DNA of 64,000 nt from NCBI GenBank assembly GCA_030386295.1, contig JANQAO010000002.1:1-64000 (forward strand), in the 5' to 3' direction. Shown one piece after another: positions 2,799 to 54,599 of the stretch. The notes beneath the pieces were generated by a model that was given only the letters and a program-made list of their open reading frames with translations, did not search any database and had not been told where the DNA came from. The position numbers were made by a program, and so were the translations under genes. How positions within the stretch are numbered: position 1 is the stretch's first letter; the number at the start of each line of letters is the position of its first letter. This stretch comes from Candidatus Persebacteraceae bacterium Df01. Its GTDB lineage: Bacteria > Pseudomonadota > Gammaproteobacteria > Tethybacterales > Persebacteraceae.

Positions 2799-2895
2799 AG
2801 TTAACTCATCTCTTTTGATGACAACTCATTAACTTCATATCAAAAGCACGGATAATTCTCAAAGAAAAATAACGCCCCCATCTATCATCTTCTAT

Positions 2896-4581
2896 ATGTT
2901 TCCTACAAATCTTAACAAAAAAGAGTGTTTCAGCATAGTTGTCATTTCTCTACTCGCCGCTTATCTAATCCTTTTCAACCTTGACTACGCTCCTCTTTGG
3001 CATGATGAAGGCACTAACGCCATCATGGCACGAAATTTTCTCAATACCGGAACTTTCACCGGTTGGGATGGACGCAATTTATTTGTCGGACTAAATGGGG
3101 GCGGTGTCAATAGCAATCTCGTCATGGCTGCCTATCCGCCGTGGCCAGCTATCCCTAGCGCGTTGGGAATTGCTGTTTTTGGTCATAACGAAATAGGACT
3201 GCGTTTTTTTCACGCTTTGTTAGGCTTATTCTCATTGTTTTTCTTTTGGCGGTTACTCAAACTTGATTTTGCTAATGCTCCTCGCCTGCGAATCATCGCT
3301 TTTGCGCTTTTTGCACTATCAGCACAAGCTATTTTATTTATGCGCCAAGGACGTTATTACCCTGATGCTTTTTTCTTTTCGCTTGCTTCTTTTTATTACT
3401 ACCGCTTGTACATTTCCTCCGGTGGCCGATGGCAACATCTAGCGGCCGCTGCTGGATTGACAATATTAAATTTTCTCAATCATTTCGCCATCGGCGCCTC
3501 TGTCGCTTTAGCTTTTGGTTGCTGGCACCTGCTGTACTATCGACGCCAAACGACAAAACAACAATGGCTAGCATTTGCTGTTTTTGGCTCGGCAACAGCA
3601 ATTATTTGCATGCTTTATCTTTGGTTGATGGGAATTATTGGCGGCAATGAGCAGCTAGAATATGATGACGATATATATACGCTATCGTGGCTACCAAGAC
3701 ACTTTACTTTGTTATTTTATTATCTGCGGGATACCGTAAGATATGGTTGGTTACCACTTTGGATAACCTTGTGGCTAGCTTTTATGGTGCTTAATAAACC
3801 AAAGAAAACAAAAAAAAATCCAAAACCACGCAAAAAAAAATTATCAAATACCGACCAAATTGCTAATATTAATAACCAAATTCTACGCTGGGTAGTGCTG
3901 GCTTTCCTCAATATCATCACAGCGGCTGTAGTATCTGTACAGCCCTCAACCCACAGTCTAGCAGACTCACGTTATTTGATAGGAGCGTTGCCATTTCTAA
4001 TGTTGATATCAGCTGCTTGTGTAAATTGGCTTTGGAAGCAATCTCATGGTAAATTTTACGCACCTATCTTGCTGGCAGCGCTTTTGTTTTCTAATTTACC
4101 GGGCTACCCATTTCTTGCCAAAGGTGTTTTTATTCAAAAAAAAATCAAGTGGCCGCTGCCTAGTCTAGTTTGGGAAATCCATCAACCCTACCCCACAGCC
4201 ACTAAAGACGTAGCTGAATATCTAAAAAAATACGCTAACCAAGATGACGTGGTATACGTTCATCCGTGGCAAGAGCAGGTATTGCTGCATTTTTATTTAG
4301 GTGATAAATTAATTTTTTGTTGTTTGCTAGACGGCAAAGACAACTTACCAAAAAACACAATAAAAGCACTAGGAGTGCCCGTGTACAGAGAAGATATCAA
4401 GCCGACATGGTATGTTGCACATAACAAGACACCTCCCGAAGAATATGAAGAGGTTTATGCTTCAACAAGCTATTATTACCCGACGCAGCGACCAGAAATA
4501 GAATACCGTTCGTTTTCCCCTATTCCAATGGGAAATAACACGTCATTTAAAATTTACCGTCTAAAAGCAGGTGCCCAATAA
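2896..4581 (+). CDS. GT-C membrane glycosyltransferase, family 39-like (copy 1)
   Basis: A 561-residue polytopic membrane protein of the GT39/ArnT-like GT-C class, which uses polyprenyl-phosphate sugars to modify lipids or proteins on the periplasmic side. After the first membrane segment comes the loop motif LWHDEGTNAIMARN (about residues 34-47); the Asp-Glu in this loop is the expected GT-C catalytic/metal site. Many hydrophobic segments follow, then a Lys-rich cytoplasmic loop near 300-320 and a soluble C-terminal part containing FYLGDKLIFCCLLD. The gene is a paralog of the minus-strand gene at 4827-6530 and of the broken copy at 6690-7657. A 13-bp direct repeat inside it (3033-3045 and 3468-3480) appears to have guided the deletion seen in the broken copy. 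No sugar donor or acceptor can be assigned. Confidence 0.85.
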   Translation: MFPTNLNKKECFSIVVISLLAAYLILFNLDYAPLWHDEGTNAIMARNFLNTGTFTGWDGRNLFVGLNGGGVNSNLVMAAYPPWPAIPSALGIAVFGHNEIGLRFFHALLGLFSLFFFWRLLKLDFANAPRLRIIAFALFALSAQAILFMRQGRYYPDAFFFSLASFYYYRLYISSGGRWQHLAAAAGLTILNFLNHFAIGASVALAFGCWHLLYYRRQTTKQQWLAFAVFGSATAIICMLYLWLMGIIGGNEQLEYDDDIYTLSWLPRHFTLLFYYLRDTVRYGWLPLWITLWLAFMVLNKPKKTKKNPKPRKKKLSNTDQIANINNQILRWVVLAFLNIITAAVVSVQPSTHSLADSRYLIGALPFLMLISAACVNWLWKQSHGKFYAPILLAALLFSNLPGYPFLAKGVFIQKKIKWPLPSLVWEIHQPYPTATKDVAEYLKKYANQDDVVYVHPWQEQVLLHFYLGDKLIFCCLLDGKDNLPKNTIKALGVPVYREDIKPTWYVAHNKTPPEEYEEVYASTSYYYPTQRPEIEYRSFSPIPMGNNTSFKIYRLKAGAQ

Positions 4582-4826: not shown

Positions 4827-6530
4827 TTACGGTCGAATCCGCTGATATATGTATCCTCTGGGAGAATCATAAATTGGAGTAAAAGAGCGAAATTCCAATT
4901 CAGGACGTTGTGTTGGGTAAACCCCCGTACTAGATATATAGGCTAGTTCAATACCAGAAGATTTTTTAGGTGGACTATGATTTCCAGAAATAACTATCCA
5001 ATCCGGCATTACATTGTCCATATAAAGTGATTTGTTCATCTCCAAAATAACACTTTGTGGCAATTCGTCAGGCGAGTCTAACAAGCAACAAAAAATCAGT
5101 TTATCGCCTAAATAAAAATGTAACAACACTCTATCGGGTTCTGAACTAACAAAAATCAAATCATCTTGTTTGGCATGGGCGCGCAAGTATATTGAAATTT
5201 CCTCGACGGCGGTAGGATATGGATGATGAATTTCCTTTATCAAGCTTGGCAGTGTCCATTTGAGCCCTTGATCGGTCTGAGTAGAACGAAATAAAAACGG
5301 ATAACCTAGTGCATTAGATAATAGTAATACTGCCAGTAGAGACATGGCTAGCCATTTTTTACGGCGCCAAAACCATTCCACACAGAAACCAATGGACAAC
5401 GACAAAAAAGGCAATGCCGCTAGCAAATAACGGCTATCCGCTGCTGACGGCACGGCTACGGACTGAACTGAAATTATCGCAGCGGCAATAATATTAAGCA
5501 GAGCCAGTACTATCCAGCGCAATGCCCGTTTGTCGATACCCTCCGTAACTTGACGTAAACTAGAAGCCTCCTCATTTTCAAGCTTTCTTTTGCTCTCTCT
5601 ATTATTAAAAAAAAGCCGAAAAAAAACAAAAAATATCAACCACCATACTATCCAAAACGGCAACCAACCATAGGTAACCGTATCTCTCAGATAATAACCC
5701 ATTATTCTTAGGTGGCGCGGGAACCATGACGAAACATACTCACCCTCTTTCCCTAATTCGTTGCCGATAGCCCCAATAAAAAGAAGATAAAAACCACACA
5801 CTGCCGCCACTATCACACCAGCAACGAATAGCCCAAGCCATTGTTGTCTAGTGGTTTGGTTACGATAATAAAGCAAATGCCAAACACCAAATGACAGTGC
5901 AGTAGATGTGCCGATAGCAAAATGATTAAGAAAATTTAATATCGTTAATCCAACAACCAATATTAAATGTCGTGGCTTTCCAACTGTTGATATATACAAT
6001 CGGTAATAATAGAAAGAAGCTAATGAAAACAAAAAAGCATCGGCAAAATAACGTCCTTGACGCATAAATAAAATAACTTGTGCTGATAATGCAAAAAGTG
6101 CGAAGGCTAAAATTCGTAACCGAGGAGAAGCAAAAAAATCTAAATTCAATAATTTCCAGAAAAACAATAAAGACACTAATCCTAAAATTCCATGAAAAAA
6201 ACGTACACCAATTTCATTTTCACCAAAAATCACCATACCCAACGCACTGGGAATAACAGCCCATGGCGGCTCAGGCCACGGCGAATAAAGCACGTTAAGA
6301 TTTTCATTAACATTAGAATTACCAACACCTATCATATGCAAATTGCGTCCATCCCATGTAGAGAAAGTTCCGCTATTAATGAGATTTCGCGCCATAATCG
6401 CATTGACGCCCTCATCATGCCACAAGGTTACATAGTCAAGATTAAATAACGTCAAATAGACCGATAATAAAAATATGGCTGTTGCCCAAAGAATGTCTTT
6501 TTTACTTAGTGTTTTTAATAAATAACTCAC
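4827..6530 (-). CDS. GT-C membrane glycosyltransferase, family 39-like (copy 2)
   Basis: A 567-residue polytopic membrane protein closely related to the gene at 2896-4581. It has the same opening membrane segment, the loop LWHDEGVNAIMARN with the expected Asp-Glu site, a block reading LFMRQGRYFADAFLFSLASF, and a soluble C-terminal part with FYLGDKLIFCCLLD and YPTQRPELEFRSF. It is divergent enough from copy 1 to be an old paralog rather than a recent duplicate. It is transcribed towards tRNA-Ser and copy 1, so the two intact copies converge on the tRNA. It probably transfers a sugar from a lipid-linked donor in the periplasm. Donor and acceptor are unknown. Confidence 0.85.
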   Translation of the reverse strand: MSYLLKTLSKKDILWATAIFLLSVYLTLFNLDYVTLWHDEGVNAIMARNLINSGTFSTWDGRNLHMIGVGNSNVNENLNVLYSPWPEPPWAVIPSALGMVIFGENEIGVRFFHGILGLVSLLFFWKLLNLDFFASPRLRILAFALFALSAQVILFMRQGRYFADAFLFSLASFYYYRLYISTVGKPRHLILVVGLTILNFLNHFAIGTSTALSFGVWHLLYYRNQTTRQQWLGLFVAGVIVAAVCGFYLLFIGAIGNELGKEGEYVSSWFPRHLRIMGYYLRDTVTYGWLPFWIVWWLIFFVFFRLFFNNRESKRKLENEEASSLRQVTEGIDKRALRWIVLALLNIIAAAIISVQSVAVPSAADSRYLLAALPFLSLSIGFCVEWFWRRKKWLAMSLLAVLLLSNALGYPFLFRSTQTDQGLKWTLPSLIKEIHHPYPTAVEEISIYLRAHAKQDDLIFVSSEPDRVLLHFYLGDKLIFCCLLDSPDELPQSVILEMNKSLYMDNVMPDWIVISGNHSPPKKSSGIELAYISSTGVYPTQRPELEFRSFTPIYDSPRGYIYQRIRP

Positions 6531-6689
6531 AGCATATAATTCTATATTAAAAAATATTACGCTTGGAAAGCTTTTACGGACATATTTATTAGCTCACACC
6601 ATAATCAGTCTGTTATATGGTATTCTCACCCACACCTCACAACCGAAAATAAATTGATAGCACTCTATATTTAATACACGAAAGCCGCT

Positions 6690-41425: not shown

Positions 41426-42076
41426 CTACAGCGTTTTACTCGGAAAAACGCACCACCGCCGCACCGTACATTCAGTGCACATTGGTTTTCTAGCTTTGCA
41501 GACATAGCGACCATGCAAAATAAGCCAGTGATGCGCATTCTGCTTATACGACTTAGGAACCACTACATTAAGCTTGTCTTCCACCGCCCGAACATTTTTA
41601 CCTGGAGCTAGCCCGGTTCGGTTTGCCACGCGAAAAATATGCGTATCCACAGCGATAGTAGCCTCACCAAACGCCGTGTTAAGCATGACGTTCGCTGTTT
41701 TTCGCCCTACCCCAGGAAGTGCTTCTAATTCTTCTCTAGTGCGAGGAACTGTACCATCGTACTTCACTTGTAAAATCTCTGACAATGCCATAACATACCG
41801 TGCCTTGGAGCGAAACAAGCCAATCTTGGAAATATACGAAATTAATTTTTCTTCACCCAGTACTAGCATATCCGCAGGAACATTAACCGATGCAAACAAC
41901 CTCTCAGTAGCGGCGTTCACACTTTTATCTGTCGCCTGCGCCGACAATACCACAGCCACCAGCAGTTGATAATGATTGTCATAATTCAACTCAGTAGTAG
42001 GCGTTACTATGTTCCGTTTGAGCTCTTCAAAAAATCGCCGACGGGAAGCAGAACTCATCACACCACTATCCAACAT
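41426..42076 (-). CDS. nth: Endonuclease III (DNA glycosylase/AP lyase)
   Basis: A 216-residue base-excision repair enzyme for oxidised pyrimidines. The helix-hairpin-helix with the catalytic Lys is LEALPGVGRKTANVML, the catalytic Asp is in AVDTHIFRVANR, and the C-terminal 4Fe-4S cluster ligands follow the C-x6-C-x2-C-x5-C spacing in CKARKPMCTECTVRRWC. The ATG at 42076 or the one at 42058 may be the start. It lies 30 bp after the last prepilin gene on the same strand, so it may share that transcript, though its role is unrelated. Confidence 0.96.
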   Translation of the reverse strand: MLDSGVMSSASRRRFFEELKRNIVTPTTELNYDNHYQLLVAVVLSAQATDKSVNAATERLFASVNVPADMLVLGEEKLISYISKIGLFRSKARYVMALSEILQVKYDGTVPRTREELEALPGVGRKTANVMLNTAFGEATIAVDTHIFRVANRTGLAPGKNVRAVEDKLNVVVPKSYKQNAHHWLILHGRYVCKARKPMCTECTVRRWCVFPSKTL

Positions 42077-42106: not shown

Positions 42107-43216
42107 TTAATCTGGCAGAAACTCTAATTTTGTAATGGGCAATACGCCCGCACTCAACAGTTCACCAATAATTTCATTCGGAGACATCCATGACACAATA
42201 TCATCGGAACCGTCAATTTTTCCGGATGAGGATGGCGCTTGCACAAAAATATTTTCTGCTAATGTGGATACGGTTATTTTTTCACAGCCACGCACACCAA
42301 TAGTAGCCGTGTTAATAAAAGGATGTCCATCACGATAATATGCGTTGGCAAACTCGGCAAGATTATCCGCTACCATTGGTACCGAACGGCACTTGCCATT
42401 AACGCCTACCGCCCCATAACCATTTCTCCCGTGCGAAAATATCACAAAAGCTGCACCGTTAACTACGCCCGTTGGGCTACCGTTTTTATCTGTCGTATCA
42501 TATTTAGGAATAATACGTGCTTCTAGCTTCAATTTTTCCGTTCCTGTGTGCACTAAACCAACAAGCAAATTATTCAAATCCTGCTGCGGGCAGTCAGTAT
42601 TCATGCTTACAGAATTACAAATTAATGCGCCGGTTTCATGCCACGTGCCTCTATGAGAATATAAATAATCAGTGTCAGACAAAGACAACGACAATCTCGG
42701 ATCAAACATATCCGCGCGGAACGTCTCATCAAAACCAAGCATACCGCTGGAAAAAGCAATATCTACCCGATAGCCAATACGATTACCCCACGGATCTGTT
42801 TGCCGGCACATTCCTAGCGTTCTCCACGGCAACAAACCTTTTGACTCTTCGCAAACCATGCTGGTTGTCAGCATAGCAGCACTTACTGTTGTTAAAGAAA
42901 AATTTTTCGTGCGGTCTTCATTACCATCATTGTCAATATCCGGACACGGCAAATAAGGTCGTCCAGCCGGAATATCATACGATACACCGTCATAATATGT
43001 TAGCGTTCGCTTTTGAGTGCGATTGACGATAGCATAAGAAACAATAGCATTTCGCGCTAAGTTCAATGTCTCATTAACTTCTTGGCGCTCCCTCAATTCA
43101 AACCGAAACTGAAATGGCTGTAAAACCGCGTCTAACAAAATACCCAAAACAACAAGAGCCAAGGCAATTTCTACAAGAAGATAACCGCGTTCCGCGTCTA
43201 ACTTAACGTTAGTAAT
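42107..43216 (-). CDS. Prepilin-like protein D of the giant-pilin operon (probable ATT start)
   Basis: A protein of about 369 residues with a class III prepilin leader ERG|YLLVEIALALVVLGIL (Glu at +5), cut by a prepilin peptidase. Downstream it has AGRPYLPCPDIDNDGNEDR, GLLPWRTLG, DPWGNRIGYRV, FVIFSHGRNGYGAVG and SDDIVSWMSPNEIIGEL, shared with its three neighbours. The first ATG/GTG/TTG in frame (TTG 43162) lies inside the membrane helix and would remove the leader. The only plausible start upstream is ATT at 43216, overlapping the stop of the upstream gene by eight bases, in keeping with the coupled operon. Otherwise the gene is translated without a leader or is decaying. The function beyond filament subunit is unknown. 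Confidence 0.75.
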   Translation of the reverse strand: MTNVKLDAERGYLLVEIALALVVLGILLDAVLQPFQFRFELRERQEVNETLNLARNAIVSYAIVNRTQKRTLTYYDGVSYDIPAGRPYLPCPDIDNDGNEDRTKNFSLTTVSAAMLTTSMVCEESKGLLPWRTLGMCRQTDPWGNRIGYRVDIAFSSGMLGFDETFRADMFDPRLSLSLSDTDYLYSHRGTWHETGALICNSVSMNTDCPQQDLNNLLVGLVHTGTEKLKLEARIIPKYDTTDKNGSPTGVVNGAAFVIFSHGRNGYGAVGVNGKCRSVPMVADNLAEFANAYYRDGHPFINTATIGVRGCEKITVSTLAENIFVQAPSSSGKIDGSDDIVSWMSPNEIIGELLSAGVLPITKLEFLPD

Positions 43217-44543
43217 CTTTCAAGACCGGAACATCTTTAGCCGGTAATATTAATCCATCCGTTAGCACACGTACAAGTTCATCACGCGTCATCCAAGTAA
43301 CAATATCATCAAAAAGATCACTGCTGTTGCTGTTGCCAATAAATAACTCTTCTGAACGGGGGGCGACAACAAAATAGCCATTTTCAAAATTATTATTGGT
43401 TGCATCTTGTAGTTGCGGGCAAAAATTGCCATTAAAATTAGGCGCTTCTATTTGCGGAAAATTAACCGCTTCATGACGTAACCCATCGGCAACAGAATAA
43501 GGTTGCACTGACAAAGTATTGTGTATCGGTTCGTTACAAATAAGCACGGAAAAAGATACGGAGGCTGCGCTTTGATTGGCAGCATAATTGACCGCGCCAT
43601 GTCCATTTTTACCGTGAGAAACAATCACAAACGGCAAACCATCTGAAATATCGCCGTCAACGTACTCTCTATTCGGTGCAGAATAAGCCATCTCTTGTAT
43701 CTCGCCAGCCTCCAAAATTAACGTTCTGCTAGTAGACTTTTGACACAATTCCACCGCTCTCCCATCACAGACCACAATTGGTCGCCGAGTGTTTGTGTAT
43801 GATAGTTGCAACGGTGTATTCACAGTAGTAGTTACTGTACTCTCGGGTGAAATATTTGTTATCACCCGATAATTTGACTTCGTAACGAAAGTTGTAATAG
43901 TCACTCTGCGAGCATATAAAAAATCTCCATTTGCCTCCGTGGCCAATACAGTTGAACGCAAATCAAACACATCTGCCCTAGTATTTCCGTTAAACCCTAC
44001 AATAGCGTTAGAAAAAGCATCATCAACTTGGTATGTATAGTGATTACCCCAATGATCAACAGGACCTCCACCTAATGTTTTCCACGGCAATATCCCGCGT
44101 GATGCAAGACAACTACCCGCAAGGAGTAAATTATTAGTTCCCTGTGTTGCCAGATTACTGTCAACGACAAGTGTTGTTGTTACGGCAAAAATATCAGCAT
44201 CGGTACCAATAGCAAACGTCATTTCGTTACGGTCTTCATAACCATCACCATCAACGTCAGGGCACGGCAAATAAGGGCGTCCAGCAGGCATTTCAAAAAT
44301 TCGCCCACCGCCTCCTGATATGCTTGCTGTTCGCTCTCTCGTCTGGTGGCGCGCGGCATAACCAACAACCGCATCCCGTAATTGCGCCATACGTTGCTCT
44401 TCACTTTTGTATGAATCATCTATCAGTAGTGCTTGCATAGGCACAATAACGGCCCCCAGCAAAATACCAACCACTACAATAACAATCATCATTTCTACTA
44501 GCGACAAACCTCGTTGGCGAACCATATCAAAAGAAAACATCAT
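43209..44543 (-). CDS. Prepilin-like protein C of the giant-pilin operon
   Basis: A 444-residue protein with a class III leader ending VRQRG|LSLVEMMIVIVVVGILLG (Glu at +5). The shared head domain follows: AGRPYLPCPDVDGDGYEDR (an EF-hand-like D-x-D-x-D-G-x-x-D loop at 96-104), GILPWKTLG, DHWGNHYTYQV, FVIVSHGKNGHGAV and FDDIVTWMTRDELVRVL. It is longer than its siblings because of a Thr-rich insertion around residues 205-250. The ATG overlaps the stop of the upstream prepilin gene as ATGA. It is probably a minor pilin or pseudopilin; the assembly system is not in the window. Confidence 0.85.
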   Translation of the reverse strand: MMFSFDMVRQRGLSLVEMMIVIVVVGILLGAVIVPMQALLIDDSYKSEEQRMAQLRDAVVGYAARHQTRERTASISGGGGRIFEMPAGRPYLPCPDVDGDGYEDRNEMTFAIGTDADIFAVTTTLVVDSNLATQGTNNLLLAGSCLASRGILPWKTLGGGPVDHWGNHYTYQVDDAFSNAIVGFNGNTRADVFDLRSTVLATEANGDFLYARRVTITTFVTKSNYRVITNISPESTVTTTVNTPLQLSYTNTRRPIVVCDGRAVELCQKSTSRTLILEAGEIQEMAYSAPNREYVDGDISDGLPFVIVSHGKNGHGAVNYAANQSAASVSFSVLICNEPIHNTLSVQPYSVADGLRHEAVNFPQIEAPNFNGNFCPQLQDATNNNFENGYFVVAPRSEELFIGNSNSSDLFDDIVTWMTRDELVRVLTDGLILPAKDVPVLKDY

Positions 44544-45736
44544 GGACTATCCTCCGTGCCAAAAGGCGGCAACGATGCCGCTGGTAAACTTCCTCGAGCA
44601 GTCATTCCGGCAATAATTTCTTCGGTAGATAGCCACACTACAATATCGTCAAAATCATTGCCTATGGTATTTCTAGTTAAATTTCTACTCACAAAACCGT
44701 TTATATGGCTGTTCGCAACCGACGGAACAATGCCATTGCAACTTCCTGATGAAATAGGCCACTGAGCGTTTTGCCTCTCATTATCGTTTTGCGGTGCTTC
44801 ATTACAAATAAAACTCAAGGTTGTGTTTCTCACCGCACCGTAACCGTTTTTGCCATGCGACATAACTACCACCGGCAACCCATTGATTGCTAGTTGCTCC
44901 GTATCAAATACGTGATAAACACCATCTTCTAAGCCCGCAGCCAACGGTACATTCAAGGAAACTAAAACCGCTCCATTATTTGTATAATGCATTTCGCCGG
45001 CAATAACATTTGTCAGTGGCATGGCAGTATCTCCCGGGCAAGGCGAGTTAGAACATATAATTGATGGCGTACGTATTTGCTCAAAAATAACCGCCCCTAA
45101 AGTAGAAAGATGCGGAGTTGTATCCAGCTTAGGCTGAACGGGAATTAACTTGCTGTTTAGAACCGTCACTGATAGCGGGCGTGTCAACAAAGAACTATCG
45201 TCGTGCGCAGTTTCGTCAAAACCGATAAGTGCGTTAGAAAATTTGTGGCTGACTCGATAAGTGTAGCGATTTCCCCAAGGATCAACCGGAGGTGTTCCTA
45301 AAGTTTTCCATGGAACAACACCCTTAATACTCACACAATCGCCACCTAATTCCGTTTCATAGTTATCATTACTCGCATCTACAGTAAGTAAAAAAGACGA
45401 CGGTAAATCTACACGGTCTTCATTGCCATCATTATCAACATCCGGACAAGGCAAGTAAGGTCGCCCAGCAGGCAAATGCCATCGCACGTCAGTGGTAGAC
45501 GCTCCAACATTAATCAAATCTCGTGCCACCGTTGCATGAGAAGCGGCATAATCCATAATTGCTTCTTGGATAGACTTTATGGATTGCTTTGTTTCAGCTT
45601 GGAACGTATCCTGTTGGACATTGTAATACTTAGTAATAAGTGCAGACGAAATCATTAACATTGTCGTCAAAACAATGAAAATTTCAACCAGTGTGTATCC
45701 GCGTTGCTCTAATTTTTTTTCCATTATCTTATTCAC
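44540..45736 (-). CDS. Prepilin-like protein B of the giant-pilin operon
   Basis: A 398-residue protein with leader LEQRG|YTLVEIFIVLTTMLMISSA (Glu at +5). It carries AGRPYLPCPDVDNDGNEDR (LPCPD at 95-99), GVVPWKTLG, DPWGNRYTYRV, VVVMSHGKNGYGAV and FDDIVVWLSTEEIIAGM. The GTG at 45736 overlaps the upstream stop as GTGA; an ATG four codons later (45724) is an alternative. Paired cysteines in the head (PCPD and GGDCVS) may form a disulfide. Like its siblings it would be an inner-membrane-anchored filament subunit. Confidence 0.85.
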   Translation of the reverse strand: MNKIMEKKLEQRGYTLVEIFIVLTTMLMISSALITKYYNVQQDTFQAETKQSIKSIQEAIMDYAASHATVARDLINVGASTTDVRWHLPAGRPYLPCPDVDNDGNEDRVDLPSSFLLTVDASNDNYETELGGDCVSIKGVVPWKTLGTPPVDPWGNRYTYRVSHKFSNALIGFDETAHDDSSLLTRPLSVTVLNSKLIPVQPKLDTTPHLSTLGAVIFEQIRTPSIICSNSPCPGDTAMPLTNVIAGEMHYTNNGAVLVSLNVPLAAGLEDGVYHVFDTEQLAINGLPVVVMSHGKNGYGAVRNTTLSFICNEAPQNDNERQNAQWPISSGSCNGIVPSVANSHINGFVSRNLTRNTIGNDFDDIVVWLSTEEIIAGMTARGSLPAASLPPFGTEDSP

Positions 45737-46806
45737 TCAGGCAAAAAATCCAACGGAGTAACAGGAAAAACACCATGACGCAAAAGGCTACCCATCAACT
45801 GGTCGGACGACATCCAAGCGACAATATCATCAAAATTTCTTTTTTCGCCTCCCCTATTGCCGTGAACACTATCCACAAAACGAGAAAGTATCCCTCCTGC
45901 CACATCATTATTTGGGCACGGTGAATTTGTCCTACTCACCATAGAATGAGTTGGATTAAGATAGGCGTTCTCTTGCTCTTCCACAGCACCTAACAATACA
46001 TCTCGGCAATTTCCGTTTCGCCCAATAGCACCATAACCGTTGCGACCGTGTGACACAATAACAAAAGGCATCCCTTCAACCACGCCATTTGGCTCCACTG
46101 TGTTATCAAAAACACGAGCTCCAATCGTGACCATAGTGGTATGTCCAGGAAGTACGACACCAGCCCACAAGTTATATATAAATCCGCATTCCTCTCTACT
46201 GGTATCAAGGCTAATGTCTGTCACCTTACAAATAATTGCTCCTGCATCGTCCTGACTGTCACGAAGCTGATATCGCCCTTCTCCGGAAGAATAATCAAGT
46301 GGTCTTCGCACATCAAAAACATCAGCCTGCGTTTTGCTGTCAAAGCCTATTAATGAACTGGAAAATGCCTCATCTACTAGATAAGTAAGTCGATTTCCCC
46401 AAGTATCAGTATCGGGAAGCCCCAGTGTCTTCCATGGCAGAGCTCCTTTCTGTTCTTGGCAAACACCACGGGTAAGCAAATCAGCGCCAAACAAAGCACT
46501 ATTGGGTACATCAACTCGGTCTTCCGCACCGTCATTATCAATGTCCGGACATGGTAAATAAGGACGCCCAGCTGCCAAAACGTAATTAAAACCACCGTGG
46601 TCTTCCAATTCCCGAACTACCGTACGGTGGCGAACTGAATAAGAGACAACTGCATCTTGAGCTGCGTTCATTAGCGATTCGGTTTTTTGGTTGTTTTTAT
46701 CTTCATAGTATCTTTGCAACGGTACTAAGCCTCCTCCTAACAAAAGCGCCAGCACCACCAAAGCGATAGACATTTCAACAATATTGTAACCACGCTGATT
46801 GATCAC
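45733..46806 (-). CDS. Prepilin-like protein A of the giant-pilin operon
   Basis: A 357-residue protein with a very short leader MINQRG|YNIVEMSIALVVLALLLG (Glu at +5). The head domain has AGRPYLPCPDIDNDGAEDR (LPCPD 84-88, acidic loop 88-96), GALPWKTLG, DTWGNRLTYLV, FVIVSHGRNGYGAIG and FDDIVAWMSSDQLMGSL. The GTG start overlaps the stop of the 7.8-kb gene as GTGA, so it is translated right after the giant protein. Its C-terminus (FPVTPLDFLPE) closely resembles that of protein D (LPITKLEFLPD), making A and D the nearest pair. Confidence 0.85.
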   Translation of the reverse strand: MINQRGYNIVEMSIALVVLALLLGGGLVPLQRYYEDKNNQKTESLMNAAQDAVVSYSVRHRTVVRELEDHGGFNYVLAAGRPYLPCPDIDNDGAEDRVDVPNSALFGADLLTRGVCQEQKGALPWKTLGLPDTDTWGNRLTYLVDEAFSSSLIGFDSKTQADVFDVRRPLDYSSGEGRYQLRDSQDDAGAIICKVTDISLDTSREECGFIYNLWAGVVLPGHTTMVTIGARVFDNTVEPNGVVEGMPFVIVSHGRNGYGAIGRNGNCRDVLLGAVEEQENAYLNPTHSMVSRTNSPCPNNDVAGGILSRFVDSVHGNRGGEKRNFDDIVAWMSSDQLMGSLLRHGVFPVTPLDFLPE

Positions 46807-49800
46807 AATTGAAACTCCAGCTTGCCTCCGACCAAATAAGTGCGGTCATTGCTAACAACTCGCGATCCCACAATATCATTAACATAACGGCGACGTCCAC
46901 GATAAATATAAAAACGGTCACCATCCACATTTTCACGTTCATCCAGCCATGCACATGGATGTCCTAAGCCAAAAGCAATACCAGTTGCGGTTTCATAGTT
47001 GTTTTCGGACACACCTTCACGAGTCTGGCTAATTTGGACATCGTTAATCGCATCCATACCATCTACCAAATCAATATCTCCTGCTGCACAGTTTATTGCG
47101 TCTAATGGTGTAAGACTAAAAAATGCTGCAGCCTGCACATTAGCATAACGCACATACTTTGTTGTGGTATTAGTGGTTTCACTACCTACATGCAATCGGC
47201 TACCAGCGGGAATAATAAGAGCAGGCCGTACCACGGTTATTCCAATACCAGTAATGTCCAAAAGTTCTGCACTAGTACGGTATTGAGCGAGCACGCTCGT
47301 TACGTTAAGCTGCTCAAAGAACGCTCCTCCGAAATAAGTTCCCATTACCGGATTAACAATCGTATCTTTCGGTAAGGATGTTAACTTGCCAAATTGATCT
47401 TCCAACGAAGCACCCTCATGCAACCGTAGCCAAGCATTAGTATAAGCCGATGCAGTAGAATATGGATCTTCAGCTGGTGCTGTTTCAGAACGGCTAAACG
47501 GTAACACATAGCGTTCTCCAACGTTGAGCGTACGGTAACCATCGTTTTGTGGTGTCACAACAAGCGTAGAGTTGCTTAGCGTAACAGACAATCCTACACC
47601 ATGCAAAGCGACATATGGATGGATAGATTCCCAAGATGTTGCATCCAAATTGAGTACCGTCGCCTGTGAATTGACAGGAAATTGAAACATGCCAAGCCCT
47701 GTGTTTGGATAGGGCGCCCACTGAGAATGCTGCCGTAAGGGCAGAGAGTTCATTGGTGAGATATCAATTTTGTGCGCGATACGCAATGCCTCAAACTCAT
47801 TGCCGTCAGTATCCAGCGCCACACCTACCGGCTCAAAAGGATCCGTAACATTCGCTCTGGACACGCCCATGCGTAAGAAATGGCTACCAGCCGTACTCCA
47901 GCGATAAGACAGCGGATTACCCAATTCTAAATCAAAGTTACTGTCTACAGATGGCTTAATAAAACCAGTGGGAAAAGGATCCGCACCTGACAGTCCAGTA
48001 GCAACACCATAATTATTTCCAGCATCAAATACATCACGCACACCACTGTAATATTCTCTAGCTAATCGCTCACCGTCAGCGTCAAGCAATATACCACGAG
48101 CAAATGTTCCATCATAACGAGACACAGCATTAACCGTTGCCGTAACCTCAACAACTGTCGCTTTTATACTTACGTCAACATAAATAGTTGGTGTAACAAA
48201 GCGCAAGTCAGCGATTCTTTCTTCAGGGAAATTGACTACTTCTACCACACAGTTCCCTACCGTCAGCGTTGCCGGAGCATAGTTAAAATCCCAGTCACGT
48301 ATGTAAGTGTCATCACGATAAACGCGAATCGGAGATGGTGCTGAAGCGGGACTGACGTCAATTCCTGCTAATGCACCACCCGGAATGTGCAATTGTGTAC
48401 TTACCGGTATCTCTGCCGCTGGAATAATAAGATTACGGAGTGGAAAAATTATGCTACCCGCATAAATGGTAATCACACTACCATTTACGTCCACCACTTC
48501 TCCTTGAGGTTCTGGATAGACAAAATATACATCTTCTGCAGCTGCTCCAGAAAGCGACAGATTCACTGCATCAAAAGCGATAATACCTCCCACCACTGGT
48601 ATCCAATCGGGAGAATTATACATTTCTGGGCAATCACCCGTTCCGCTACAGTCACCTGTTTGTGATGTATATATGTCACGCAACTCATCATATCCAAAAA
48701 TATCCGTCATTAATTTTGACCGCTGAGCATAAAGATCAGCGACAGCTTGCCTGCTTGCAGCACCGAAAGGAGGAACAATAGCGCCAACGCCTTCAATATT
48801 AAAATCATTACCCCACGACAACGTTTGTACCAAACCCGGCACATTGTCTGTGTTGTAGCGCCTATCCATAAAAAACAATAAATCTGAGTCATAGGAGGTC
48901 GTCACATTAGTATTTACATTGATCATTGATGAAAGCGTGGAAGGTACATTAAGATAATCAGATGCGACTGTCAAAGAAACCGGTGTAGATACCGCATGAG
49001 ATCGTGTAGTTAAAATAAATATACCACCCGCGCCAGCTCCATCCACTGCTGGTGTCGCTAGGCGCAAGGTAAGTGTAGCGGTTAGTCTATTCTCATAAGC
49101 GTCCAGCCTAGCACGAAAATCTTGCAAGTTCCAAGAAGTTTGTATCGGCACGTCGTCAGCGATAATTGGCACTGGTGGCAAGTTAAACGCAACCATCTGT
49201 TGAGTAGCTGCAGTGCTGGAAGCACATCCAGCTAAACTAGAATCAAACCCATCAATAAAAGAATTTTCTTGCGCATTCGTATCAACAACACGACGTGACA
49301 CTACCCACATATCTTCGCTATCTGTCTTAGCACCATAAGCCGGATCGCTGAAGCCGGCAAAAGGATGATTTCTATCATTCCAGCGAATACCACCTTGATA
49401 TGGTGTGGAAGTTGATGGTGCAGTTGTAAGTGTAACCTGGGGCCTCCACATAGCAATAGTTGCTTCTATTTCACCGGTATCCAAATTACGCACTCGGATA
49501 GAGACAGATATAGCATTTGTCACATTTGATGTCACAGGCAAGCCTAAATCGGCAAATAATTGGGTAACAAAACCCTCTTGGTAAATATTTGGCGTTCCTG
49601 TTCTAAAATCAATGTTGACATTAATAATATTTGGTGCGGCAGCATTACCTAAAATTTGCTGGAGGCCACCGAAAGCACTTTCTCCATCCATCCCTTCAGC
49701 GCGTTCCAAACCACTTCCCCAAAAGTTAAGTGCCGTTACGGTTGGATGAATGCGTAATTCAATATTAGGTTCCGGATATGTCCGTCCATCAGGTGAGGTA

Positions 49801-52800
49801 TAGATATTCATAATATTAGTGTTGCGCGAAAATGCCATATTGACGCCACCAGCAGGCACATAACCTTGCCATAAATATCCCATATTCATAATAAGATTCG
49901 TATTGATAGGATCGACTTCTATTACAGGAGTTTCACTGGAAAAAGGCTGACTAGACGGCGCTGTTAATGTAAGCGTATTACCCACATTAGAGTAAAACTG
50001 GGTGCCACCCAAAAAATCGATATTTTGCACATCAGCTCCTAATCCTGCTGCTACAGCATAATTAGCAGCAGATTTGTTTGCTAGCACAAAGTTATTCAGT
50101 GAGACCGCCACCAAATCACTTCTGCCCACACCGACATATCCCTGCGTTGACGAATCAACGCCAAACACTTTTTCCCCACCACGCGCACCGACCAATTGCG
50201 CGCCCAATCCTAAAGTCATATTAGTATTAATCGAAATTGATACACCATAAGCATCATCATAACGATCTCCTACATAACCACCCGGATGCACTGTCAACGC
50301 ACCATCAATATCTACATAAGACAATTGATTTGTATCCGCCGACAATCTGGATACCGCATCTGCAAAATAAGCACGTATAACTGTGTTACGAGTGCCTGCG
50401 ACGGCGCTTACTACTAATTCACTGTCACTATGTCTACCAAAATTTATTGGAGTAGCTAATCCATTTTGATACCCCATCACACTACCGTCAACGCTAATAA
50501 TAATGGCGTTAAGCGAATAGGCAGCACCCGCTCCATCGATAAGACTTGTTTCGTCAACTGTTATGAACACTCCCGGCGAATCCACAGTTAATAAAACCGC
50601 TCCCGGTGCAACAATGTCTTCTTCTAGAATAATAGATTCTCCTTCAGGGACATCAAACACCAATCCTTCATTATCGCCTTGAGCACAATCAACACCGGCT
50701 GAAGAATATTTTCGACATTCTGCCGCCACCGCATAAACCATCGGAAAATCACGCACCAGTTCAGAACTAGCTACAGGAAGCATTCCAGCGACAAAACTAC
50801 GCTCCGCTCGTACCGCCATTTCTCCAAACAAATCTAACCTTGCAAAAGCGGGAACCTCTGCCAATAAGCTTTCGCCGTCATCTTTGACCAAATTACCAGA
50901 ACCAGACATAAACACCATCGGAGACAAATCACCCAACATCTGCTCTCTATTGACAAAAGCAAAAGAGCCGTTATTGCCTCCCAATCGCAATAAAGCCGGT
51001 CCAACAGCATTATTACCGCCCACTACTGCGGTTTTTCCACTAGGAATAACGGCTACTGCATTCGCCGGCAACACCGCCGAATCACGATCATGGTATTCTG
51101 CGCCAGTAGCAGGATTACGATTCAAATCATCTGAAAGAAAATCTATCTTGCTCCCTGGTGGTATTACAATAAACGTTCCACTCGGCAAATCTACCAGCGT
51201 ACTGGGTAAATTAAGGTTATCTGCTGGATTAGCCACAATAAAGTTTGATATAACGATATTACCAACTGCAGCAGCCGCAAAATTAGAATACGACACATAA
51301 TGCACAGACACACTAACAGGAGCTTGCGACAAAATATTATTGGACGAGACGGGAAGGGATGGAGCAATCCGTAAAGTTGCCTCTTCCGCCAAATAAATGT
51401 GCATGGGGCTTCCTGAAACCACTTTTGCGTCTTCAGATACTCGCTGCACTCGCTGCACTCCGTATGGGCCATGAACAACATTGTTTAATAAATCAACAAT
51501 ACTACCGGCGTGTATAGTCATGTAAGCACCGCTTGTCATTTGGACATACATATCGGCATCTGGGAACAAGGCAAAATGTCGCTGAAAAGCACCATGGATT
51601 GTCGTTGCCGCTTCTCCCACCGTATTATTTCGATTTAAATCCAAAACGAAAGGACTACTAAGTACAGGAACGGCAATTTCACCGCTAGCGACTGACAGAT
51701 TATAAATACCGGAAATACCATGATCATAAACAATTGTTTCTTCTGGCAAAATAAACTCTTGAGCGGGGGCCACACCCAAAGTAATTCTCGTAACGTCAGG
51801 CAACATAAAATGAGTGTCTTCACTCAAATCAACCGTAACAGAATAGCTTGGCAATATTTGTATTGAGGAAAGCCCCGCTAGCAAATTAACTCCTAAAGTG
51901 ATATTGGTTTGCAAACTATCGAAGGAAGCAGCGGTAGCTCCAGCAGCACTACTACCACCGTAGACAATCCCCTCCGCGGCGCGGGCAAGAAAGCCAGCTC
52001 GAGTCCGAGTTTGTGATAACAATACCATATTTTCTTCCAATTCGATTCGAGATGGATCTAAAAACTTACCGCTAAAGGGTTGTAAAAGCGCATTTGCAGG
52101 ATAAGAAATATTGTCTCCAGTACTAGCGACATGAGCAAGCACATTTCCGCGCAGCTCTATGTCAAACAATGCTTGTTTGTCACTAAATGCCGCACCTCGT
52201 GCAAGCACGGGGCGCACACCGACAAAACGAACAAAACCGCCATTATGTAAAGTTATTAGAGCGTCAGGAACAGCACTTGACACGGATTCGCCGCTGGGTA
52301 ACACGGCATTTGCCGGAATATCAACACGCATGACAGCACCTATAGGCATTAAGGCTACAGCGTCATCTGGAAAAACAAAATCTAGTCCAATATCAATAAC
52401 GGCATTTACTGGATAAATAATTTTTGAGGCACTTGGCAGAAAGAACTCTGTTTCGCTTCTAATAGCAAGCGGTGTGGGAATAGCGAACGGTGCCGCTGGC
52501 ATATTAGCCTCAACCGGCAACCCTGGAGGAGGGAAAGGTTGCAGCACTAAGTCTTGAGATGGGTATAAAGTCATATCCATCGCCAATTGTGATACCCCAC
52601 CCTCAGCAAGCGTTAAAGTAAGAATCGTATCTAAATACTCTACATTAGGTTCGTTGTTTATCGGCAAAAAGCCATCATTACCAGCTGCCACCGGCGTCCC
52701 CGCTGGAACTGCGCTTGTGATAAAAAAGTTACTCCGCACATCAACGGATACCAACACACCACCCGAACGTGGGCGCAATATCACAGGCTTTTCTGAAACG

Positions 52801-54599
52801 TCTGCAATATTCCAATTTCCTGTATTAGCATCATATTGACCATTAAAAGAAAAATCTTCAGGCAATTCTAATTCCACTTCCAACGCATCTACCGCCACTT
52901 GAGTTCCTGCTGGCAACAACACATTGACTCCTTGTGGCGGCGTCATCGTTACCGTTTGATTGTTAAACGCGACAACGCTAACCAGAACACTGTCTACAAC
53001 ATACCCCCAGGCAGGTTCAGCCAAAGCCGCAAATAAAATTCCGCCGCTAGGTGTCACACTATTAACAGGTAAAGAAAAATCTTGCACATTGGAATAGTCG
53101 GCTTGCGGAATTACATTACCTACTCCCGGCACACCTTGTGCTAGGTCAGCTACACCAAAAAGCGAACCCAAATGAGGATAATGCCCAGCAGCCTCTAGCG
53201 CATCCCGCTGCGCTGGTAACAGCGGCGTGTAACTAAGAGCAGTATCCATATCGGCCAATACCACATTAAAAGGAGGAGCTATTAACGGTGGCGACACATC
53301 AATCGATAAACTAATATTACTAGGCAACAAATACACGGGCGGCAAATTTTGCGCCAGCATTTCTATAGTTACACCTTGGCCTTCACGAATATCAGCCACT
53401 TGTAAGCCAGCATCAACCGTAACTGTCGTTTCTGTTGCCGACGCTACAATAGTGTTGGTAAGCACAATCCCGCGCCTTGGCACGCCAGCTGCTCGAAACC
53501 GAGATTCGGCTGTCACTTCATCAAAAACAGAAGGCTCCGGTAAATAACCATGACGGTTTAAGTATCCCTCCAGCATATCTTGAACACCCAAAAAGCCATT
53601 TTCACCACCTGTTCGACTGTAGATACCTCGCGTATTACTTTCATCTGTAAGCAGCGCAAATCCCTCACCGCCAGGCGATACCATATCTTCAACAGTTATA
53701 TAAGATATTTTGTCATCACTGGCATCAGAGGAGACACTAACACTTACTACACCATCAACTGTTAATCTTAAATACGTACTCTCTTCTAAATAAGCCTCGT
53801 GCTGATTTGACAAGCTAATAGAGAGAGGCACTGCACCCACACCACTGTAAAGACTTACTTCAGAATTGCGAGAAGCGCTTCCCACACCCCCAACTGCTCC
53901 TGGAGCGATTAATACTGCGGCAACTCGATCAGAAACAACTTCGCCATCTTCCTCCACGGAAAGCCAGCCGGTTGTCATCCGCAATAATGCATGCGGATTA
54001 ATCGCGTGGTCAGCATTGGCCACATTACCTGCCAGTGCATACCACAAGCGATCATTGAAACTACCACGAAAATCACGATTGCCCACGCCACGCACGTACT
54101 CGTACACCGAACTGTCCTCACGCACACTGTCACGCCACGGTAACCTTCCAAGACGCGCTCCAGAACTCAACGGAAAACCGGTTGCCGCCAAAGGATCAGC
54201 TACAGCACTTCCAGGCACTATTTCTTGCGCACAACCGTTTGGATAAATGTCAGCCAACCCGTCAAGGTTATTATCAGAAAGCAAATCCGGACACGGCAAC
54301 ACAAAATCACGAAATGGGACTCGCTCACCATCACCACGGTAAAAATTGTAGTGACCAGAATTAGCAACGACGTCAATGCGCGACAGCGGCACAAGCGCGT
54401 AATTAATAAGTGCCTGCCGAGCCTCTTTTAAAGAAGTTACCCCTTCACGACGGTTTTCCTGCTTGGCATCGACCGATTTTTGCAAGATTTCCGAGATGCC
54501 CCACATGGACACCCCAAGAATAGCAAAAATAAGGAATAAAACGTGCAAAAACCCGCGCGTCCGACGCACTGAATAAAAATGTCTTCTGCTCACGTCCAT
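46803..54599 (-). CDS. Giant prepilin-fused surface protein (2,598 residues)
   Basis: First and largest gene of the operon. Residues 1-16 are a basic leader ending RRTRG, followed by a membrane helix FLHVLFLIFAILGVSMW without Glu at +5, as in GspK-type tip pseudopilins. Residues 60-300 match the head of the four following prepilins: LPCPD at 101-105, an acidic SDNNLDGLAD loop at 108-117, GRLPWRD near 151, RVAAVLIAPG, and DDKISYITVEDMV. The remaining ~2,300 residues are Val/Ser/Asn/Pro-rich, predicted beta-rich, with few cysteines and many degenerate copies of a hydrophobic-x-P-x-G/N-T/S-x-V pattern (for example LLPAGTQVAVD, FILPEETIVYD, VIPSGKTAVVG, IIPAGSRLHVG). No enzyme motif was seen. I infer an adhesin-like passenger carried at a filament tip. 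The ATG at 54599 is the only good start. Confidence 0.8.
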   Translation of the reverse strand: MDVSRRHFYSVRRTRGFLHVLFLIFAILGVSMWGISEILQKSVDAKQENRREGVTSLKEARQALINYALVPLSRIDVVANSGHYNFYRGDGERVPFRDFVLPCPDLLSDNNLDGLADIYPNGCAQEIVPGSAVADPLAATGFPLSSGARLGRLPWRDSVREDSSVYEYVRGVGNRDFRGSFNDRLWYALAGNVANADHAINPHALLRMTTGWLSVEEDGEVVSDRVAAVLIAPGAVGGVGSASRNSEVSLYSGVGAVPLSISLSNQHEAYLEESTYLRLTVDGVVSVSVSSDASDDKISYITVEDMVSPGGEGFALLTDESNTRGIYSRTGGENGFLGVQDMLEGYLNRHGYLPEPSVFDEVTAESRFRAAGVPRRGIVLTNTIVASATETTVTVDAGLQVADIREGQGVTIEMLAQNLPPVYLLPSNISLSIDVSPPLIAPPFNVVLADMDTALSYTPLLPAQRDALEAAGHYPHLGSLFGVADLAQGVPGVGNVIPQADYSNVQDFSLPVNSVTPSGGILFAALAEPAWGYVVDSVLVSVVAFNNQTVTMTPPQGVNVLLPAGTQVAVDALEVELELPEDFSFNGQYDANTGNWNIADVSEKPVILRPRSGGVLVSVDVRSNFFITSAVPAGTPVAAGNDGFLPINNEPNVEYLDTILTLTLAEGGVSQLAMDMTLYPSQDLVLQPFPPPGLPVEANMPAAPFAIPTPLAIRSETEFFLPSASKIIYPVNAVIDIGLDFVFPDDAVALMPIGAVMRVDIPANAVLPSGESVSSAVPDALITLHNGGFVRFVGVRPVLARGAAFSDKQALFDIELRGNVLAHVASTGDNISYPANALLQPFSGKFLDPSRIELEENMVLLSQTRTRAGFLARAAEGIVYGGSSAAGATAASFDSLQTNITLGVNLLAGLSSIQILPSYSVTVDLSEDTHFMLPDVTRITLGVAPAQEFILPEETIVYDHGISGIYNLSVASGEIAVPVLSSPFVLDLNRNNTVGEAATTIHGAFQRHFALFPDADMYVQMTSGAYMTIHAGSIVDLLNNVVHGPYGVQRVQRVSEDAKVVSGSPMHIYLAEEATLRIAPSLPVSSNNILSQAPVSVSVHYVSYSNFAAAAVGNIVISNFIVANPADNLNLPSTLVDLPSGTFIVIPPGSKIDFLSDDLNRNPATGAEYHDRDSAVLPANAVAVIPSGKTAVVGGNNAVGPALLRLGGNNGSFAFVNREQMLGDLSPMVFMSGSGNLVKDDGESLLAEVPAFARLDLFGEMAVRAERSFVAGMLPVASSELVRDFPMVYAVAAECRKYSSAGVDCAQGDNEGLVFDVPEGESIILEEDIVAPGAVLLTVDSPGVFITVDETSLIDGAGAAYSLNAIIISVDGSVMGYQNGLATPINFGRHSDSELVVSAVAGTRNTVIRAYFADAVSRLSADTNQLSYVDIDGALTVHPGGYVGDRYDDAYGVSISINTNMTLGLGAQLVGARGGEKVFGVDSSTQGYVGVGRSDLVAVSLNNFVLANKSAANYAVAAGLGADVQNIDFLGGTQFYSNVGNTLTLTAPSSQPFSSETPVIEVDPINTNLIMNMGYLWQGYVPAGGVNMAFSRNTNIMNIYTSPDGRTYPEPNIELRIHPTVTALNFWGSGLERAEGMDGESAFGGLQQILGNAAAPNIINVNIDFRTGTPNIYQEGFVTQLFADLGLPVTSNVTNAISVSIRVRNLDTGEIEATIAMWRPQVTLTTAPSTSTPYQGGIRWNDRNHPFAGFSDPAYGAKTDSEDMWVVSRRVVDTNAQENSFIDGFDSSLAGCASSTAATQQMVAFNLPPVPIIADDVPIQTSWNLQDFRARLDAYENRLTATLTLRLATPAVDGAGAGGIFILTTRSHAVSTPVSLTVASDYLNVPSTLSSMINVNTNVTTSYDSDLLFFMDRRYNTDNVPGLVQTLSWGNDFNIEGVGAIVPPFGAASRQAVADLYAQRSKLMTDIFGYDELRDIYTSQTGDCSGTGDCPEMYNSPDWIPVVGGIIAFDAVNLSLSGAAAEDVYFVYPEPQGEVVDVNGSVITIYAGSIIFPLRNLIIPAAEIPVSTQLHIPGGALAGIDVSPASAPSPIRVYRDDTYIRDWDFNYAPATLTVGNCVVEVVNFPEERIADLRFVTPTIYVDVSIKATVVEVTATVNAVSRYDGTFARGILLDADGERLAREYYSGVRDVFDAGNNYGVATGLSGADPFPTGFIKPSVDSNFDLELGNPLSYRWSTAGSHFLRMGVSRANVTDPFEPVGVALDTDGNEFEALRIAHKIDISPMNSLPLRQHSQWAPYPNTGLGMFQFPVNSQATVLNLDATSWESIHPYVALHGVGLSVTLSNSTLVVTPQNDGYRTLNVGERYVLPFSRSETAPAEDPYSTASAYTNAWLRLHEGASLEDQFGKLTSLPKDTIVNPVMGTYFGGAFFEQLNVTSVLAQYRTSAELLDITGIGITVVRPALIIPAGSRLHVGSETTNTTTKYVRYANVQAAAFFSLTPLDAINCAAGDIDLVDGMDAINDVQISQTREGVSENNYETATGIAFGLGHPCAWLDERENVDGDRFYIYRGRRRYVNDIVGSRVVSNDRTYLVGGKLEFQL

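Follow-up and report, generated by a model that had tools for sequence, protein, structure and literature searches.

What is a prepilin of 2,598 residues for, and what are the four smaller prepilins encoded directly behind it? The question arises from the first 64,000 nucleotides of contig JANQAO010000002.1 (assembly GCA_030386295.1) of Candidatus Persebacteraceae bacterium Df01, the stretch that we analysed and refer to as the window. The genome to which it belongs comprises 1.53 Mb in 5 contigs and is 98% complete. An earlier note, made from the letters of the window alone, had proposed an operon in which a pilin domain mounts a giant passenger, and had recognised no named system in it. Our analysis suggests that the giant is probably the tip subunit of a type IV pilus resembling the mannose-sensitive haemagglutinin (MSHA) pilus, and that its enlargement took place within a pilin pair that many free-living bacteria also carry.

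Five prepilin genes in one cluster

The five same-strand genes of the earlier note are borne out as open reading frames on the minus strand, between 42107 and 54599. The 5′ gene of the cluster encodes the giant (2,598 amino acids, P0001; 46803–54599), which has relatives in other genomes of the order. Four small prepilins with the motif LPCPD follow: prepilin 1 (357 amino acids; 45733–46806), prepilin 2 (398 amino acids; 44540–45736), prepilin 3 (444 amino acids; 43209–44543) and prepilin 4 (369 amino acids if an ATT is its start; 42107–43216). Prepilins 1 and 2 have GTG starts. As claimed, neighbouring genes overlap by 4 nt at the first three junctions; the 8-nt overlap at the fourth requires the fifth gene to begin at the ATT (43216). 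This apparent start lies in the overlap at 43209–43216; the first standard start codon, a TTG at 43162, would delete the prepilin site. The next gene on the same strand (41426–42076) is endonuclease III-like (nth), as named from its own sequence, and the order of small pilin then nth is common to the window and to contig 82 of a related genome (G002). Promoter and terminator patterns occurred at frequencies not usefully above those in shuffled sequences. Elsewhere in the window, two similar large membrane proteins that share the motif LWHDEGxNAIMARN are encoded on opposite strands (2833–4578, plus; 4830–6593, minus).

A prepilin-type N terminus had been ascribed to all five proteins, and each indeed has a class III signal: a short basic leader that ends in Gly at position −1, followed by a long hydrophobic stretch. 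According to sequence and alignment, the leader of the giant comprises residues 1–16 (54552–54599, minus strand), its final Gly standing before FLHVL. Position +5 is Glu in the four small pilins and Leu in the giant. Among the five, only small pilins 3 and 1 exceed the cut-off of the Pfam N_methyl or NCBIfam GFxxxE models (pilin 3 that of N_methyl), and two small pilins match GspG/GspH models over their N-terminal part, below the cut-off. The head signature that was said to be common to all five is complete, apart from small changes, in the four small pilins, whose alignment gives GRPYLPCPDxDxDGxEDR, PWxTLG, DxWGN, SHGxNGxGA and DDIVxW; the giant retains only LPCPD and LPWR letter for letter.

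A 66-nt block of DNA in one small-pilin gene recurs in the other three with 76–83% identity to this reference copy, as expected after tandem duplication. In a tree, the order's small pilins group together as a single clade (support 100/99), apart from their free-living counterparts, which points to the probable amplification of one ancestral small pilin in the Tethybacterales.

Head, passenger and C terminus of the giant

The pilin head of the giant (residues 1–310; 53670–54599, minus strand) contains a long N-terminal helix and the motifs LPCPD, GRLPWR, RLWYAL, AAVLIAPG and DDKISYITVEDM. Alignments place it in a sister family, here termed K-like, with RLWYA, AAVxxAPG and DDxxYIT(xxEL) at corresponding places and no Glu5. 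Its homology to the K-like heads of free-living Betaproteobacteria is clear (hhalign probability 100, E = 3.4e-40), whereas that between heads of the giant type and of the small-pilin type is more distant (probability 97.8, E = 1.3e-12). At their C terminus, short K-like proteins repeat the head motifs in diverged form (hhalign probability 97.8, E = 1.3e-12). An AlphaFold model of residues 1–1100, built on 12 aligned sequences, has a helix at residues 6–69 and strands in the head, with a mean pLDDT over the whole model of 41.6. No solved structure matched the K-like head, and a Foldseek search with this poor model returned no pilin and no PDB match at E ≤ 0.001; phage proteins at E = 0.6–1.6 were not significant and were not used. 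The giant matched no NCBIfam pilin model, and nothing in Pfam matched it at E up to 1. Membership of the MshQ, GspK or PilX families is therefore unsupported by these searches. Matches of P0001 to an anion transporter (E = 0.04) were dismissed as chance.

Between head and C terminus lies a passenger of about 2,000 residues (approximately residues 381–2385; 47445–53459, minus strand), which was characterized by composition, models and searches for repeats and relatives. It is beta-rich, poor in lysine (0.8%) and cysteine (0.3%) and acidic, with 207 Asp and Glu against 94 Lys and Arg in residues 391–2380. Turns of the LPxG type are enriched relative to shuffled sequences, and no clear internal repeat or period was detected. 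A model of residues 1420–2598 rested on 4 aligned sequences and reached a mean pLDDT of 28.3. The models, Foldseek and the PHROG search identified no fold or ligand for the passenger, which matched no PHROG family and no plasmid record; nor did the C-terminal half of the giant have relatives outside the order among 369 genomes of the class. Given this composition, the likeliest job of the passenger would be binding.

The last ~210 residues (residues 2386–2598; 46806–47444, minus strand), with the motif ENxDxDR...NDxxxLxGGxL, are conserved within the order, whose two families have homologous passengers as well as homologous C termini. Matches of this C terminus to those of short K-like proteins of free-living bacteria are weak but rightly placed (hhalign probability 18.8, E = 0.0013; E = 0.001 for the locus L077), as is that to K2, a second K-like pilin discussed below (E = 0.025). 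Because these matches fall in the right place, and because a conserved C terminus follows some 2,000 extra residues, the passenger is likely to be an insertion between head and C terminus rather than a terminal fusion. The earlier claim of about 2,300 extra beta-rich residues fused to a pilin thus stands as to a large extra part, which is better divided into a probable insertion of about 2,000 residues and the conserved C terminus.

A pilin pair with free-living relatives

Candidatus Tethybacterales, named AqS2 in GTDB (PMC12625764), are mostly sponge symbionts (PMC8546597). We sampled five genomes of the order (G000, the window genome, to G004) and used the small pilins as the query for a scan of the collection. 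Giant frames are present in four of the five: 2,598 residues in G000, at least 1,154 in G002 and at least 2,558 in G004 (both run to a contig end) and 3,335 in G003. Small LPCPD pilins follow the giant directly in G000, G003 and G004, that is, wherever the contig continues. G001 gave no K-like match. A lack of recurrence in related genomes had been named as something that would refute the earlier proposal; the order has homologous giants in three genomes besides that of the window. An assembly error or a chance long reading frame, for which no evidence was found, is refuted as an explanation and has a negligible probability, because independent genomes carry giants (2,558 to 3,335 residues) that are homologous and keep the same gene order. 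The second K-like pilin of the window genome, K2 (865 amino acids), stands alone beside a leuC-like gene at ~474.7–477.3 kb of contig 1 (L017:9675–12269), and a relative on contig 81 of G002 has the same leuC-like setting. K2 may serve as a tip in place of the giant, on the same small pilins.

The pair is not restricted to symbionts. In free-living Betaproteobacteria and relatives in the class (Sulfurimicrobium, Azospira, Rhodocyclaceae and others; L041, L034, L029, L042, L047 and L081–L086), a K-like gene and then a small LPCPD pilin gene close an MSHA-like operon, 3′ of its genes for the secretin, N, E, G, I and J. A K-like match was found in 76 of the 369 genomes of the class. These pairs resemble that of the Tethybacterales in their homologous heads, and that of the window in gene order, in close or overlapping junctions and in Glu5 being absent from the first protein and present in the second. 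They differ in that the pair is joined to the machine operon, whereas it is separate in the Tethybacterales; in the number of small pilins, mostly one as against as many as four; and in the size of the K-like frame, 255–1,135 amino acids as opposed to 2,598–3,335. The median outside the order is 583 amino acids (52 matches of at least 100 bits), with such open frames being overestimates in GC-rich genomes. Four free-living K-like proteins of intermediate size (L081, L082, L083 and L084; 1,040–1,135 amino acids) have extra sequence between head and C terminus.

Judged by homology and gene order, the system is not foreign, as the uncharacterized pair is already present in free-living Betaproteobacteria, and in the Tethybacterales it has left the MSHA-like operon. 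The impression that no known arrangement could be recognized does not survive this comparison, since the pair closes MSHA-like operons in many of these bacteria. Of the giant and its operon, which had been presented as the new part, the pair itself is shared; what is new, on the sequences compared, is that a single symbiont order has enlarged one subunit and multiplied the other. Within the class sample, enlargement is confined to this order.

The pilus machine and the place of the giant

The absence of type IV pilus or type II secretion system (T2SS) genes from the source genome had been named as another possible refutation, and such genes are present. On contig 1 of the window genome (41–50 kb), an MSHA-like operon with the order L-N-E-G-I-J-K is orthologous to the free-living one; the secretin, E (MshEN and T2SSE domains) and G (T2SSF) were identified by Pfam, and the remaining members by their place in the operon and their sequence similarity. 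A PilT-like ATPase and one prepilin peptidase are encoded elsewhere in the genome, as is a possible major pilin (contig 2, 185.3 kb). The five-pilin cluster and the machine are on different contigs and thus not adjacent. In G000 (L016:2–12370, contig 1) and G002 (L118), the J-K end of the operon runs directly into cytochrome bc1 genes.

We consider it probable that the giant is the tip, or initiating, subunit of this MSHA-like pilus, together with the four Glu5 minor pilins, and that it displays an extracellular binding passenger. Ng et al. (2016) argued that minor pilins without Glu5 are able to initiate a filament yet unable to be added to it afterwards. In their proposal, when one of four or five minor pilins stands out by a hydrophobic residue 5, and often by a substantially larger size, it may be the first subunit (PMC5207764). 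One Leu5 giant beside four Glu5 pilins fits that proposal. We infer the tip position, the assembly order, the adhesive function and secretin passage as follows. The five-gene operon would encode the minor-pilin (initiation or tip) complex, and the prepilin peptidase would cleave all five leaders. Without Glu5 the giant should not dock onto a growing filament; it would be the first subunit, with the four small pilins stacked below, after which MshE and MshG would extend the filament with a major pilin. The giant would then exit first through the MshL secretin and show at the tip its passenger, mounted in a type of pilin that has about 400–1,100 residues in free-living relatives. There the passenger would probably bind a surface, for instance host cells, matrix or other bacteria, and PilT could retract the giant-tipped pilus. 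The filament-tip adhesin envisaged in the earlier note therefore agrees with the large Glu5-less minor pilin and its four Glu5 companions, with the MSHA-like machine and PilT, and with the recurrence of the cluster, tip position and adhesion being the inferred parts. The gene position counts against it, as the giant is encoded 5′ in its cluster and the corresponding gene of T2SS-type clusters is 3′ (PMC5207764). The location of the machine on another contig, the family and fold searches that returned no pilin for the giant (the latter with a poor model), and the genomes G003, G004 and G001, described below, weigh against it as well. The passenger of about 2,000 residues would also have to pass the secretin, for which we are aware of no precedent in a pilin this large.

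Pseudopili of T2SSs likewise have one large tip subunit without Glu5 (PMC5207764), so the same head could belong to a tip pseudopilin of a T2SS-like machine that pushes out its attached passenger as a giant exoprotein, either released or held at the surface. The sub-threshold GspG/GspH matches of two small pilins would suit this arrangement. However, the MshEN-domain E ATPase and the PilT-like ATPase of the same genome fit a retractile pilus, and no releasing protease or cleavage site was identified for the passenger. We regard secretion by a pseudopilus, the other possibility raised in the earlier note, as unlikely and as less likely than the tip reading. The draft genomes bear on a further alternative, in which the giant is a surface protein independent of any machine, its pilin part a leftover membrane anchor and the pilus reduced to a vestige in some members of the order. 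Searches of G003 gave neither MshE nor a secretin, and those of G004 no MshE, while the giant frames of both are open. On contig 15 of G004 (L116:1–1749), an MshL-like secretin gene has an in-frame stop, which may reflect decay or a sequence error. Both genomes are, however, drafts of 85–87% completeness in 240–270 contigs, and that secretin gene lies at a contig end. The machine is intact in G000; in G002, where N is cut off by the end of a contig, it is intact from that partial gene on, and the small pilins remain conserved; a machine-independent giant is accordingly improbable, to a slightly greater degree than secretion. G001 has a secretin and MshE, yet no K-like match.

Several known proteins share features with the giant. 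One is ComZ of Thermus thermophilus, which, with its neighbour PilA2, likewise pairs a large pilin carrying a beta-rich domain with a partner pilin encoded next to it; ComZ is a GspK-like pilin with an inserted beta-solenoid and a proposed location at the pilus tip (PMC6561018). Its insert comprises ~380 residues, has a solved structure and binds DNA (PMC6561018). ComZ offers a precedent, in favour of the tip reading, for a beta-rich domain housed in a K-type pilin. Minor pilins of the GspK/PilX type are, like the giant, the only one of five without Glu5 and much larger than the rest (PMC5207764), but the giant matches neither the T2SSK nor the PilX family and is encoded at the 5′ end of its cluster. 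Modular pilins such as PilB of Streptococcus sanguinis also join an extra module to a pilin module; the most extreme case named in a survey of them has 860 residues and a motif that occurs 12 times, as against giants of 2,598–3,335 residues without a known module (PMC8179133). The open literature searched contained no report of giant minor pilins; on the pili of Tethybacterales it yielded only a listing of T4aP among metagenome-assembled genomes that include a member of the order. The symbiosis literature consulted on Tethybacterales does not address contact with sponge tissue. Another large protein, MshQ, is encoded with the minor pilins of Vibrio MSHA pili; the giant differs from it in lacking any Pfam match. 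Tip subunits are thought to decide what type IV pili bind; those that are pilins usually fall well short of 1,000 residues.

We put forward a broader reading tentatively, as possible but short of probable: the giants would be among the largest known pilins, tip subunits of ~270–350 kDa that pass the secretin ahead of the filament and form an order-wide device for contact with the sponge host, with K2 (865 residues) as an alternative tip on the same small pilins. Related genomes present the same subunit at about 430, 1,100, 2,600 and 3,300 residues, and, if the giant passes the secretin, it would set a new upper limit for the cargo of such a machine. The locus also points to an uncharacterized pilin pair that is common in Betaproteobacteria, and supplies a specific candidate for the structure by which the uncultured Tethybacterales might make contact with sponge tissue.
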